In this document: piece after piece, positions 47,754 through 51,544 of the stretch
Layout of the letters: the number at the start of each line of letters is the position of its first letter
Numbering within the stretch: the stretch's first letter is position 1
From: Arenibacter latericius DSM 15913
Lineage (GTDB): Bacteria; Bacteroidota; Bacteroidia; Flavobacteriales; Flavobacteriaceae
Assembly: GCF_000424985.1 (NCBI RefSeq)
Contig: NZ_KE384290.1
Coordinates: forward strand, 1 to 64,000
DNA length: 64,000 nucleotides
Reading direction: 5' to 3'
The notes under the pieces: generated by a model
What the model saw: the letters and a program-made list of their open reading frames with translations, nothing else
What the model was told of the DNA's origin: nothing
Databases searched by the model: none
Position numbers and translations under genes: made by a program

Positions 47754-48389
47754 ATGGATCTTACTATTATCTATAAATATTTTCCCAATCTAACGGAGCA
47801 TCAAAAAGAACAATTTACCAAGTTGCAAGATGTATACCAGGATTGGAATGTGAAAATTAATGTGGTCTCTAGAAAGGACATAGATGAGCTTTATATTCGC
47901 CACGTTTTACATTCATTGGCAATTGCTAAATTTCAGCAATTTGCTCCAAATACCCATGTCTTAGATGTTGGTACTGGAGGTGGATTTCCTGGTATTCCCT
48001 TAGCAATTTTATTTCCAGAAACCCAATTTGTTTTGGTAGATGCTATCGGTAAGAAGATTAAAGTAGTACAAGAGGTAATAGATAATTTAGATATCACTAA
48101 TGTTACCGCTATTCATTCTCGAGTAGAGGAGTTGGATCGGCAGTTCGATTTTATCGTTAGTCGCGCCGTAGCAGCTATGCCAACATTTGTGCATTGGGTG
48201 AAAGGAAAAATAAAAAAGGACTCTGTCCATGATCGTAAAAACGGTATCCTTTACCTTAAAGGTGGGGATTTAGAAGAAGAACTAAAAGAATATCGAACCG
48301 TAGAAGTATACCCGATATCGGATTATTTTGAGGAGGAGTTTTTTGAAACTAAAAAATTGGTTTACCTCCCTATGAAGTATAAAGGCTAA
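47754..48389 (+). CDS. rsmG: 16S rRNA (guanine(527)-N7)-methyltransferase
   Basis: The 211-residue GidB-family enzyme has the SAM-binding loop VLDVGTGGGFPGIPLAI and the motif QFDFIVSRAVAAMPTF. The N-terminal WNVKINVVSRKDIDELYIRHVLHSLA is also diagnostic. It methylates G527 of 16S rRNA. Length is normal. It is a single gene convergent with pruA. Confidence 0.96.
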   Translation: MDLTIIYKYFPNLTEHQKEQFTKLQDVYQDWNVKINVVSRKDIDELYIRHVLHSLAIAKFQQFAPNTHVLDVGTGGGFPGIPLAILFPETQFVLVDAIGKKIKVVQEVIDNLDITNVTAIHSRVEELDRQFDFIVSRAVAAMPTFVHWVKGKIKKDSVHDRKNGILYLKGGDLEEELKEYRTVEVYPISDYFEEEFFETKKLVYLPMKYKG

Positions 48390-48615
48390 AGTTTTAGCAT
48401 TAATTGATACGAATCTCTACAGCGTTTAGCATATTCTTTAAGGAGTTTGGGGAAGTTTGTTGCCCAAGAAGAAATTTCTAAGTTTGTTCTGTTATGGGTT
48501 GTTGGTTTGTACATGATGTTACTGTTTTAGGTTGCCTGCATATAGGCTCCTTACTGTAACGTGAAATTTTAAAAGATATTGTGTTTTAAAGAGAGTTATT
48601 TTCTTCTGTTTAATA

Positions 48616-48662
48616 AAAATAAAATACCCGTAGCGCTATGAGCACTACGGGTATTTTATTTT
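48616..48662. terminator. Bidirectional terminator between rsmG and pruA
   Basis: An 18-bp perfect stem (AAAATAAAATACCCGTAG with its complement at 48645-48662) encloses an 11-nt loop, with A- and T-rich flanks on both strands. It sits 13 bp past the pruA stop, so it mainly serves pruA. Confidence 0.93.
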
Positions 48663-48675
48663 AATGCGATTTGTA

Positions 48676-50304
48676 TTATCCTAGGAACGGATATCTATAA
48701 TCTGTTGGTGTTACAAAAGTCTCCTTAATTAATCTTGGAGATACCCATCGCAATAAGTTTTGTGCAGATCCGGCTTTATCATTAGTTCCAGAAGCTCTTG
48801 CACCGCCAAAAGGTTGCTGTCCTACTACAGCACCGGTAGGCTTGTCATTAATATAGAAGTTACCTGCGCAGTTCTGTAAGGCTTTAGTGGCCTCTTCTAT
48901 GGAGTAACGATCGGCAGAGATAACGGCTCCTGTAAGCGCGTATTCAGAAGTGCTGTCTACTAATTTTAAAGTTTCAGACCAGTCTTTATCCTCGTAAACG
49001 TAAATGGTTACTACCGGCCCAAAAAGCTCAGTTTCCATTGTAGTGTAGTTAGGATCTGTAGTAACGATTACTGTAGGTTCTATAAAGTAACCTTTGGATT
49101 TATCGTAATTACCACCTGAAACAATAGTAGCCTTTTTATCTTTTTTTGCTTGGTCTATGTACTTGGCCAGTTTGTCAAAAGAGGCTTCGTGGATAACTGC
49201 AGTTATAAAATTCCCCATATTTTCTGGAGAACCTGGTTTGTTCATAGAATTTAAATCTTCTTTTACCAACTCTAAGATTTCGTTGGAAATAGATTTAGGA
49301 AGGTATACTCTAGAAGCGGCGCTACATTTTTGTCCTTGAAATTCAAAGGCACCTCTAACAATAGCAGTAGCAACTTGTTTTGTATTGGCTGTAGGATGCG
49401 CAATTATAAAGTCTTTTCCTCCTGTTTCACCAACAATTCTTGGGTAGGTTTTGTAGGTGTCAATGTTGTTTCCAATCTGCTTCCATAGCGATTTAAATAC
49501 CTGGGTAGATCCTGTATAGTGAAGGCCAGCAAAGTCTGGACTATCTAAAGCAACTTTGGTAATCATAACTGGATCACCATATACAACATTAATTACTCCG
49601 TCTGGTACTCCAGCTTCCTTAAAAATGTCTACAATTACTTTTGCAGAATAGATTTGGCTGTCGCTAGGTTTCCATAATACTACGTTCCCCATCATGGCAG
49701 CACTGGCAGGAAGGTTTCCTGCAATGGCGGTAAAGTTAAACGGGGTAATGGCGTAAACAAAACCTTCTAGTGGTCTGTATTCTACACGGTTCCAAATGCC
49801 TTCTGAAGATTCTGGTTGATCTCCATAAATCTGAGACATATACTCCACATTAAAACGAAGGAAATCTATTAGCTCACATGCCGAATCAATTTCTGCCTGA
49901 TGAATGGTCTTTGATTGAGCAATCATAGTTGCTGCATTAATCTTTGCTCTATAAGGTCCTGCAATTAATTCTGCAGCTTTCAAGAAAATAGAGGCTCGTT
50001 GCTCCCAAGGAAGGTTGGCCCATTTCTCGCGGGCTTCCAAGGCGTTTTCAATGGCTTCGGAAACATGTTTCTTTTCTGCAAGGTGATATTGCCCTACAAT
50101 GTGTTGGTGGTCATGTGGAGGAGACATCGGCTTGGTGTTGCCGGTTCTTACCTCTTTGTTTCCAATATACATTGGGACATCTACAGTAGTGTTAAAGTAG
50201 CTGTTGTATTGTATTAATACTTCTTCCCGCTCTGGAGATCCGGGTTTGTAGCTCTTTATTGGCTCATTATATGCTGTAGGTACTTGAAAAAAACCTTTAC
50301 CCAT
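48676..50304 (-). CDS. pruA: L-glutamate gamma-semialdehyde (P5C) dehydrogenase
   Basis: The 542-residue NAD-dependent aldehyde dehydrogenase oxidises P5C/glutamate semialdehyde to glutamate in proline catabolism. Cys327 (FQGQKCSAASR) is the nucleophile and Glu293 (GETGGKD) the general base. N-terminal HDH and ITPFNFTAI motifs match single-function P5CDH of the RocA/ALDH4A1 type. No proline dehydrogenase gene is adjacent. The promoter carries a palindrome that suggests specific control. Confidence 0.95.
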   Translation of the reverse strand: MGKGFFQVPTAYNEPIKSYKPGSPEREEVLIQYNSYFNTTVDVPMYIGNKEVRTGNTKPMSPPHDHQHIVGQYHLAEKKHVSEAIENALEAREKWANLPWEQRASIFLKAAELIAGPYRAKINAATMIAQSKTIHQAEIDSACELIDFLRFNVEYMSQIYGDQPESSEGIWNRVEYRPLEGFVYAITPFNFTAIAGNLPASAAMMGNVVLWKPSDSQIYSAKVIVDIFKEAGVPDGVINVVYGDPVMITKVALDSPDFAGLHYTGSTQVFKSLWKQIGNNIDTYKTYPRIVGETGGKDFIIAHPTANTKQVATAIVRGAFEFQGQKCSAASRVYLPKSISNEILELVKEDLNSMNKPGSPENMGNFITAVIHEASFDKLAKYIDQAKKDKKATIVSGGNYDKSKGYFIEPTVIVTTDPNYTTMETELFGPVVTIYVYEDKDWSETLKLVDSTSEYALTGAVISADRYSIEEATKALQNCAGNFYINDKPTGAVVGQQPFGGARASGTNDKAGSAQNLLRWVSPRLIKETFVTPTDYRYPFLG

Positions 50305-50333
50305 AATTATGATTTTATATATTAATTTTCAAG

Positions 50334-50353
50334 CAAAGGTACTAAAAGTACCT
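50334..50353 (-). promoter_or_regulatory. pruA promoter overlapped by a perfect palindrome
   Basis: The minus strand reads TACCTTTG (50334-50341), a perfect TAnnTTTG, with GGTTTT ending 20 bp upstream as a -33 region. Overlapping it is AGGTACT-AAA-AGTACCT (50337-50353), a perfect 7-bp inverted repeat. A protein bound there would cover the promoter, so this is a likely operator. The regulator is unknown. Confidence 0.55.
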
Positions 50354-50530
50354 ACGATATTAAAACCTGATAACATGGTATTACAAGTTTTAATAGGGGG
50401 AGTTTTTAGAGGGTATTTCGGATTATGACCAATTGTTCTGTTTATGCAAACAATGTATCTTAAATAATTTTCGAATAGTAAATTTTTTCTATAAATGTTT
50501 ATCTGAGTCTTACCCAAGTATATTTTTTCA

Positions 50531-50877
50531 TTTTCTTTGCTTGTCCAAAGAAAACGAACAGGGCCTTAAAGCGAAGGTACTGTGTACCTTTGATTTAAGG
50601 AGCCAGCTGTAGCGATGGCCCGCGCGCCAACTGGCCCCTCTCTACAAATGCAAATCGTTGCATTTTCCGATCGGTCCTGATGAATTTTTTAGATGGAATC
50701 TAAAAAACGGATTCAAAACTCCGCGCTTTTTTGGATATAAAAAAGCTGAATCTCGGAGCTTTTGAATCCTATTCTGCGGATAAGGAAAATAAATCAAGAA
50801 GCCTTATAGCAAAGGTTTTCGGCTTACTTTCTTTTTTAGTCGAAAATCTGTAGATTTAAGGAAAGAAGAATTAAGCC
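50531..50877. repeat. Hairpin-rich intergenic element of unknown type
   Basis: Successive inverted repeats, all read directly: TTTTCTTTG/CAAAGAAAA (50531-50554, 9 bp, 6-nt loop); CCTTAAA+AAGGTAC with complements (50564-50600, 14 bp, 3x3 internal loop); GCCAG/CTGGC (50602-50635); AAATGCAA/TTGCATTT (50646-50665, 8 bp); TTTTTTAGA/TCTAAAAAA (50685-50707, 9 bp); a nested palindrome at 50711-50767 (ATTCAAAA and CTCCG arms around GCTTTTTT/AAAAAAGC); ATAAGG/CCTTAT (50780-50807); GGCTTA/TAAGCC (50821-50877) enclosing AAATCT/AGATTT. It has no coding frame, and its local GC around 50600-50640 is much higher than its surroundings. I recall intergenic elements opening with a similar CTTTG/CAAAG hairpin in other Bacteroidota but cannot confirm it. 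Confidence 0.65.
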
Positions 50878-51157
50878 TAGTTTTGTTTAAATACTTTTTT
50901 ATTCATCTCCTTCTTTATTGCTTTTTAAAGGAATTCATGAATGCTGAGCATTTCATTAATGGAAAAGTATTGATATGTCAATAAAGGAAGATTCTTGCCA
51001 TTGCTCCTTCCTGTTAATTTAAGTCTTACACAATTTTTGAGCTTGGCCCAGTATTTCTAGAAGTAGATGTGTTTAAAATAGTGGTGTAGAGATAAAGCAT
51101 AGCAAAACCTTGCACTAACAAGCTAAGTTTGCTAATAAATCTGATTTCCTGGGATGT

Positions 51158-51544
51158 TTAATTCAGTGCGAAAGGTGCGCTAAATTTAAAAGTAGGGATA
51201 TATACTCTAAATATTTCAGAAGTAGCTAGGGTTACCATATTGTAATGCCCTTTCATAGCGCCAACAGTTGAAGCTAATAGGCAGCCAGAAGTGTATGTGT
51301 GAGATTCACCTGGGTTAATAACAGGTTTTTGTCCAATGACTCCTTCCCCGTCTAAAATTTCTAATTCATTTAATGAATCATAAATACGCCAATGACGAGA
51401 GGTAAGTTGTACTGGTTTTTTACTTTGGTTTTCAATGGTTATCGTATACCCAAAGGCGTAGTGCATTTTATAATTCTTAAAAAATGTACCTTCGAAAGAA
51501 GTGCTAACTGAAATTTTTATGCCTTTGGTTACCTGTGTAATCAT
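51158..51544 (-). CDS. apaG: ApaG-domain protein
   Basis: The 128-residue protein is a single ApaG/FxA-like immunoglobulin fold, with the motif YTITIENQSKKPVQLTSRHW, the loop VIGQKPVINPGESHTYTSGC and the segment AMKGHYNMV. Bacterial ApaG was linked to Co2+/Mg2+ efflux and nucleotide polyphosphate levels in enterobacteria, but the molecular function is not settled. It stands downstream of the T9SS plug gene. Confidence 0.95.
   Translation of the reverse strand: MITQVTKGIKISVSTSFEGTFFKNYKMHYAFGYTITIENQSKKPVQLTSRHWRIYDSLNELEILDGEGVIGQKPVINPGESHTYTSGCLLASTVGAMKGHYNMVTLATSEIFRVYIPTFKFSAPFALN

Follow-up and report, generated by a model that had tools for sequence, protein, structure and literature searches.

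A folded non-coding passenger cassette in an ISAon1/ISL3-type mini-transposon upstream of pruA in Arenibacter latericius

The dense island of hairpins upstream of pruA in Arenibacter latericius DSM 15913 is part of a mini-transposon. The element occupies positions 50420-51049 (630 bp) of the window, by which we mean the whole 64,000-nucleotide stretch of DNA that was analysed, and it is a MITE-like member of the ISAon1/ISL3 family. We consider it highly probable (about 0.88) that it is a non-autonomous ISAon1 mini-transposon with a folded non-coding passenger cassette, most likely moved in trans. In place of transposase genes the element has a cassette in which an opening hairpin (HP1) is followed by a three-way junction and a long stem, and which closes with a terminal hairpin (HP2). 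Further hairpin modules have been inserted or swapped into this cassette, and the resulting packing is what the initial annotation had noticed at 50531-50877. The hairpin island described there is real; its limits were drawn too narrowly, the unit being 50420-51049 plus the direct repeats.

The element lies in the spacer between two minus-strand genes of the ORF list, pruA (48676-50304) and apaG (51158-51544). We take over the name pruA from the initial annotation, and apaG is a presumed identity based on its protein sequence. The spacer is 853-856 nt long in the window, with the hairpin island inside it. The element inserted into this AT-rich spacer, some 115 bp ahead of the start codon of pruA, with 8 bp of target copied, and left the likely core promoter of pruA in place. 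What we take to be a promoter-like -7 element (TACCTTTG, 50334-50341, minus strand; motif TAnnTTTG) is intact between the insertion and pruA, and 18 of 18 genomes have CAAAGnTA at a distance of 24-31 bases from the pruA side of the spacer. One copy of the element now stands between pruA and its ancestral upstream region. The earlier statement that no open frame covers the island agrees with our finding of no ORF of at least 60 amino acids in 50518-51157; a 62-residue ORF with a TTG start (50329-50517, minus strand) extends into the left end of the element. By ORF scan the element has no transposase coding capacity.

Comparison of copies defines the ends sharply. The left end is GGATCATGACCAATTGTTG and the right end CAACTTTTGAGCTTGATCC, and the two form an imperfect inverted repeat (GGATTATGACC...GAGCTTGGCCC). 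The left terminal inverted repeat (TIR; 50420-50457, plus strand, GGATTATGACCAATTGTTCTGTTTATG...) is also present at nine other places of the same genome, and is 89% identical over 38 nt to the end of an ISAon1-family insertion sequence (IS) in locus L189. The right TIR (51015-51049, minus strand) reads GGGCCAAGCTCAAAAATTGTGTAAG on the minus strand. Outward of these ends stand the flanking 8-mers GGTATTTC (50412-50419) and AGTATTTC (51050-51057), a target-site duplication that is imperfect in the window's own element, with seven of eight positions matching. The TIR pattern occurs at 26 sites in the A. latericius genome, where the reversed pattern used as a control has none, and it was found in 18 of 18 Arenibacter genomes (controls 0-3). 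We identified 29 distinct mini-elements that run from TIR to TIR and contain HP1. Their flanking 8-mers agree at 8/8 positions in 13, at 7/8 in five (window included) and at 6/8 or fewer in 11, the best-matching left end being kept where several were possible.

Of the other Arenibacter species searched, 17 of 17 have an apaG-pruA spacer of 86-449 nt, and a search of these relatives' spacers for the element gave nothing beyond 12-22 nt at E 0.33. With the spacers of relatives short and free of such a match, the insertion is specific to the species or strain of the window. The orthologous spacer has diverged, so the empty-site junction can be aligned only approximately.

A partner transposase is present in the genus. 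Elements of 1416-1417 bp bounded by the TIRs are found in three loci (L189, L190 and L191) and contain two overlapping ORFs. In a family scan that covered L189 and L191, the ORFs of the 1416-bp L189 element were identified as ISAon1 transposase (NF049917, E 7.7e-158; NF049916, E 1.4e-44), the second of them also matching the Pfam domain DDE_Tnp_ISL3 (PF01610, E 2.9e-54), and the second ORF of L191 matched the NCBIfam ISAon1 transposase model. Exact 8-bp duplications flank the IS copies in L189 (GTATTAAG) and L191; none was found in L190, L174 or L185. L191 (478-3364) contains a tandem pair of ISAon1-family copies, which at one end has three terminal repeats spaced by 46 bp. Where mini-elements were compared with the IS, the common sequence amounted to 22-38 nt per end, extending in two cases to as much as 71 nt at 79% identity, and the interior of the window element (~570 bp) is unrelated to the IS. 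This interior is not transposon-derived.

Because its TIRs are those of the 1.4-kb ISAon1-family IS, the mini-transposon was most likely mobilised in trans by an ISAon1-family DDE transposase of the genus. The A. latericius genome itself has seven transposase matches, the longest with three stops and the others partial, some at contig ends, and no intact ISAon1 transposase was seen in its assembly. With these copies broken or partial, and some of them at contig ends, the strain may have no intact gene, or the assembly may lack it. One of the 29 mini-elements, that of Maribacter polysaccharolyticus (L252), has a perfect duplication (ATAGTATA), and the genome of that species gave no match to ISAon1 transposase. 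There was no sign of present activity among our results.

The sequence of the island is repeated in the genome. A BLAST search of the A. latericius genome with 50500-50910 gave 61 matches including the query, the best other one with 91% identity over query bases 1-349 of 411. An all-against-all comparison of regions fetched from this genome shows repeat blocks of about 0.1-1.8 kb at more than 25 places. The copies are mosaics, in which parts present in some are missing in others; three of them (C33, C47:9871 and C59:12796) are without the counterpart of window positions 50560-50680. Several copies lie at contig ends, and such copies can give rise to spurious small ORFs and assembly breaks. In three loci of other Arenibacter (L147, L151 and L153) the repeat modules form dense clusters in both orientations around genes that, judged by their sequences, seem to concern cell-surface polysaccharide.

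A single-strand DNA fold of 50525-50885 contains ten helices: 50527-50558; 50560-50639, which has 4 bp and encloses the next two; 50564-50600; 50602-50635; 50646-50665; 50670-50681; 50685-50707; the nested 50709-50769; 50775-50811; and 50821-50877. A further inverted repeat (50890-50971) lies beyond the folded stretch. The eight or more consecutive inverted repeats that had been noticed from the sequence are therefore borne out, and so is the nested hairpin among them. Against dinucleotide shuffles the island has a folding z of -7.0 on the plus strand and -8.3 on the minus strand, with 0 of 100 shuffles folding as well on either strand. After correction for GC content, 50501-50850 is the most foldable of 510 segments of 350 nt in the 64 kb (z -5.4, against -4.2 for the runner-up), so that the spacer is, as had been claimed, unlike any other in the window, by a margin that is not huge. 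The runner-up, 48501-48850, overlaps the spacer between a 211-aa ORF (47754-48389) and the end of pruA. AT-rich spacers do hold many short inverted repeats, and the island might be read as ordinary terminators together with chance inverted repeats. Chance accumulation is refuted by copies of up to 91% identity across the genome, by the empty sites in relatives and by fold z values of -7 to -8, and we give this reading practically no weight.

The cassette opens with HP1 (50526-50559, plus strand), a near-invariant hairpin TTTCATTTTCTTTGCTTGTCCAAAGAAAACGAAC whose 22-nt core is found exactly at 10 places of the A. latericius genome, this one included (control 0). Behind HP1 the normal linker is replaced by M2 (50560-50639, plus strand), a module of GC-rich hairpins, which is the GC-rich patch pointed out in the initial annotation (50602-50640). 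M2 is absent from the three copies named above, is present elsewhere without the rest of the cassette, and has stand-alone matches in other Arenibacter. The next module, M3 (50640-50680, plus strand), comprises AAATGCAAATCGTTGCATTTT and a short second hairpin, and occurs with or without M2 among the copies. It is followed by P3 (50685-50707, plus strand), a hairpin of the three-way junction with perfect arms of 10 bp, whose homologous stem covaries across genera. P4 (50709-50769, plus strand) is a long nested hairpin of type B (AAAACTCCGCG...CTGAATCTCGGAGC), and has the same form in several genera.

Comparison with intact copies, for example C33 and L282, shows that 50770-50785 (plus strand) is a remnant 3' strand of stem P2 (TATTCTGCGGATAAGG); the 5' partner of this strand has been lost together with the linker in the window copy. 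Stem P5 (50821-50877, plus strand; GGCTTACTTTCTTTTT / AAAGAAGAATTAAGCC) is recognised as an inverted repeat and in the fold, and has a shortened apex. By eye, a domain homologous to P5 is present in C22, C33 and the Leeuwenhoekiella locus L295. The terminal hairpin HP2 (50890-50971, plus strand) is an inverted repeat (AATACTTTTTT...GGAAAAGTATT) with module M6 in its loop, and has a short form in C33, AATACTTTTTT-CATCAATGG-AAAAAAGTATT. In the window the covariance model R1 finds the HP1 part only (E 4.5e-9), since the linker and one side of P2 are replaced there by M2 and M3. In the HP1 region of L112 the P3-P4 hairpins lie, by eye, inside the loop of the M2/M3 module, as hairpins nested in hairpins. 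A module deletion was considered for L112 and L126 and rejected, the length difference lying outside the unit.

The fold of the cassette is kept by compensatory changes. Across 27 sequences of one subtype, in which preselection raises the values for helix 1, for some of helix 2 and for the invariant pairs of helix 6 and leaves helices 3-5 unaffected, 23 of 40 pairs have changes on both sides, and standard pairs make up 96.5% of cells against 82.2% in shuffles. The covariation score is 0.396 (0.127 in shuffles, none of 500 reaching it), and falls to 0.13 or less when the partner is shifted by one base. Four of five covariation measures lie above every shuffle; the count of further pair types does not (44 vs 41.8; 127/500). 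The alignment holds 27 of 33 representatives of 44 type-A units, found by an exact 27-mer search and preselected for the loop motif and a stem of at least seven standard pairs, so the selection itself accounts for the invariance of HP1 and of the first pairs of helix 6, and for some of the pairing of helix 2. As RNAalifold missed the outer stem on the mixed alignment A1, we worked with an alignment of a single type. The covariance model gave 104 matches at E <=0.001 in 79 fetched loci, of which the weakest may be chance. Similar sequences elsewhere and compensatory changes in the arms, whose absence was to count against the initial annotation, are thus both present.

Strong covariation, stems conserved in shape around an almost invariant hairpin, and the rank of the island as the most foldable part of the window would suit one or more genes for structured RNAs that have a function in the cell, the transposon ends being incidental. 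The kinds of pairs found in the helices argue against this. The helices of the 62 best model hits contain 2199 Watson-Crick, 15 G-T, 33 A-C and 45 other pairs in 2292 cells, against 27 G-U and 2 A-C in 308 cells of the tRNA acceptor stems used as a benchmark (44 of 46 tRNAs, from the fetched loci), so that wobble pairing in the cassette is below RNA-like frequency on either strand. As wobble is rare on both strands, constraint or repair as a DNA hairpin fits better than RNA, and this one benchmark suggests that the fold is most likely maintained at the level of the DNA hairpin. No Rfam match was found on the island, nor any at the gathering threshold on the cassettes of 18 other loci; on loci of free units the above-threshold hits were known RNAs at other positions. 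Units are oriented to their neighbouring genes in a mixed manner (26/25/22/15), which does not fit a role as leader or terminator. A scan for sigma-70-type sites found promoter-like sites in the window spacer at shuffle level (4 vs 3.1), and there is one terminator-like site, with 0.6 expected.

Folding energy was also rejected as a means of choosing the strand. Of 61 units, 60 fold better when read on the reverse strand, and so do 49 of 61 bodies stripped of HP1, yet mononucleotide-shuffled bodies show about the same difference (4.5 vs 4.7 kcal/mol), so folding energy is uninformative on strand and lends nothing to an RNA. The G-T and A-C counts (5 vs 22 in A2, 3 vs 24 in the 32 best model hits and 12 vs 9 in the next 30) come from related sequences and give a strand bias that is only suggestive. 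A structured RNA is in our judgement unlikely: of the earlier proposal of one, the compensatory changes in the arms stand, and the lack of an Rfam match and the near absence of wobble pairing weigh against the remainder. In L257 (2973-3081, minus strand) a Flavo-1 RNA (RF01705) adjoins the end of an HP1 cassette; it lies elsewhere in the locus in L303, L275 and L276, so the adjacency is not general. L257 also has a Trp_leader match just below threshold (39.5 of 41 bits, E 0.00011), which overlaps a unit and was taken as a generic hairpin. The sole Rfam match in the window at the gathering threshold is an S15-Flavobacteria ribosomal protein leader (RF03161; 34852-34915, minus strand).

The folded passenger cassette is common to several genera. 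HP1 with the covarying fold is found outside ISAon1 ends in many Bacteroidota, and HP1 occurs in the gammaproteobacterium Kangiella as well. Among GTDB species genomes, at least 111 stretches have an exact match to a 27-mer of HP1, and the 80 matches listed are mostly from Flavobacteriaceae, with Saprospiraceae and Cyclobacteriaceae MAGs also among them; the initial annotation was correct in linking the opening CTTTG/CAAAG hairpin to other Bacteroidota. Outside Bacteroidota, the 27-mer matches listed include Kangiella shandongensis and MAGs labelled Kangiellaceae, Lysobacterales, Gammaproteobacteria, Desulfobulbaceae and Desulfobacterales, MAG labels that may reflect contamination. The match of the covariance model in Kangiella is weak (41.4 bits), HP1 and the linker being shared and the stems behind them not clearly alignable.

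The distribution of HP1 is patchy. With up to two mismatches it was found in two of 395 genomes drawn evenly over the phylum, one of them A. latericius itself. All 18 genomes picked for known related loci contain it with up to three mismatches, in 1-14 copies (nine in Kangiella), and the control gave 0 in every genome. Of 199 genomes drawn evenly over the family at least 48, the A. latericius genome included, match the window element at E <=0.001, mostly in HP1 or M6; this is a lower bound, with two candidates scored per genome. A plasmid or phage origin was rejected, as a distant BLAST search with 50419-51056 gave no match in plasmids or phages, and the exact HP1 27-mer was not found in IMG/VR. 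DNA uptake sequences are present as hundreds or more short exact copies per genome. HP1 has 10 exact copies in the A. latericius genome, and 12 with up to two mismatches, too few for the uptake site that had been suggested, which is unlikely. Integron attC sites have GTTRRRY core sites at their ends.

HP2 also recurs beyond Arenibacter. By eye, the cassette of Leeuwenhoekiella L295 runs into the long stem P5 and ends in HP2. We found 26 distinct HP2-type hairpins 280-685 nt from HP1, including Kangiella, Poritiphilus and Saprospiraceae loci; in the L295 array, two of these hairpins prove to be the HP1 of the following unit. The Arenibacter form of HP2, GTTCGTTTTTTGGGCGATGCAAAAAATGAAC, resembles HP1 read backwards. 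A hairpin of this type lies 230-720 nt downstream at 28 of 100 HP1 sites, against five of 100 upstream and one of 300 block-shuffled segments. This downstream excess over the controls indicates that HP2 is real as a class, though undetected at most HP1 sites (72/100).

Interspersed palindromes in a mosaic arrangement, together with Y1 genes in 15 of 18 Arenibacter genomes, recall REP/BIME-type repeats spread by a RAYT (Y1) transposase. The units here are hundreds of bases long, and in Arenibacter are bounded by ends with 8-bp duplications. Y1 is absent from five of 11 HP1-bearing genomes, and a module match lies near seven of 30 scanned Y1 loci, the strongest of which, L213, is flanked by a different palindrome. 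These Y1 absences and the differing palindrome of L213 largely refute a RAYT/REP origin, which we regard as very improbable. In L213 (1300-1930) the Y1 transposase gene is flanked by its own palindrome CGCCCCGCTGGGGC, likely a separate REP system. The initial annotation had offered a MITE/REP-like element: a mobile, non-autonomous, MITE-like one agrees with the copies, conserved ends, 8-bp target duplications, empty sites and partner transposase, and the REP-like part is dropped, no link to Y1/RAYT having been found.

Ten of 12 non-Arenibacter genomes with HP1 are without an ISAon1 transposase match; a match above the cut-off was found in Aquimarina intermedia, and a weak fragment in Dokdonia pacifica. 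The ISAon1 and Y1 transposases are each missing from HP1-bearing genomes, and the cassette therefore persists without them. It is conceivable, at somewhat under even odds, that the cassette from HP1 to HP2 is itself mobile, for example handled as single-stranded DNA by some enzyme, and that after an ancient insertion into an ISAon1 element it has spread both with that carrier and by itself. The free copies outside ISAon1 ends in many genera, HP1 in Kangiella and the second end hairpin downstream of HP1 speak for such movement. In Leeuwenhoekiella blandensis (L295:3158-5064) four HP1 units stand in one orientation within 2 kb, with no ORF of at least 60 aa between them. In Dokdonia (L300:1801-2500 and L258:3073-3233) the HP1 unit in one and the same spacer is oriented oppositely in two genomes; the P4 stems of the two units differ, and one has an additional hairpin. 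Against movement of the cassette, no enzyme was found beside the units: an all-against-all comparison of 513 neighbouring ORFs gave a single cluster present in more than two loci (5 loci, 3 of them Arenibacter). Y1 does not fill this place, being absent from the genomes counted above and having its own, different palindromes where it lies near such repeats. By eye there is no target duplication beside the free units listed, no empty site for a free unit appeared among the matches listed, with none clear on further comparison, and the frequent failure to detect HP2 also tells against it.

We tentatively suggest, again with less than an even chance of being right, that the HP1...HP2 cassette represents an unnamed family of folded non-coding mobile DNA, moved by some hairpin-recognising enzyme and captured as cargo by the ISAon1-type mini-transposons of Arenibacter. 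As proposed, and sharing the same doubtful standing, the family would have members of a few hundred nucleotides (HP1 to HP2 280-685) in Bacteroidota and at least one gammaproteobacterium, with a near-invariant end hairpin, arms that covary through Watson-Crick pairs only, and an inverted partner hairpin.

MITEs are usually regarded as transposons that have been emptied. In the present case a passenger whose fold is under selection travels between the ends of a known family, and it is also found in other genera where those ends are absent; its key hairpin extends even to another phylum. This recurrence of the passenger without ISAon1 ends suggests a hairpin element, so far undescribed, that has a partner protein or a function of its own. 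Easy handles in the search for a partner are provided by the covariance model, by the near-invariant 27-mer and by the pairing of HP1 with HP2. No published description of the cassette was found in literature searches, and a term search in a review of MITEs gave no mention of ISL3 or Bacteroid- (PMC10969869).

The window element resembles the ISAon1 group of the ISL3 family in its terminal repeats GGATCA...TGATCC and its 8-bp duplication, as in L189 and L191, and differs from it in having no transposase and an interior unrelated to the IS. REP/BIME repeats with RAYTs are likewise intergenic palindromes in mosaic combinations; unlike them, the units described here have no Y1 partner that we could find, are hundreds of bases long and have transposon ends in Arenibacter. 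REPs are 20-40 bp in length (PMC3733652). The minisatellite-containing MITE of Porphyromonas gingivalis is similarly a non-coding, dispersed, non-autonomous element with inverted ends in Bacteroidota (PMC4596501); the window element has as its interior no minisatellite but a conserved covarying fold, which in other genera is also found without a MITE around it. TIMEs are inverted-repeat miniature elements derived from Tn3, which give rise to mosaic non-autonomous transposons (PMC4133298). The window element shares with them its non-autonomous inverted-repeat nature and mosaic make-up; unlike the Tn3-derived ends of TIMEs, its own ends are of ISL3 type, and they enclose a folded non-coding passenger.
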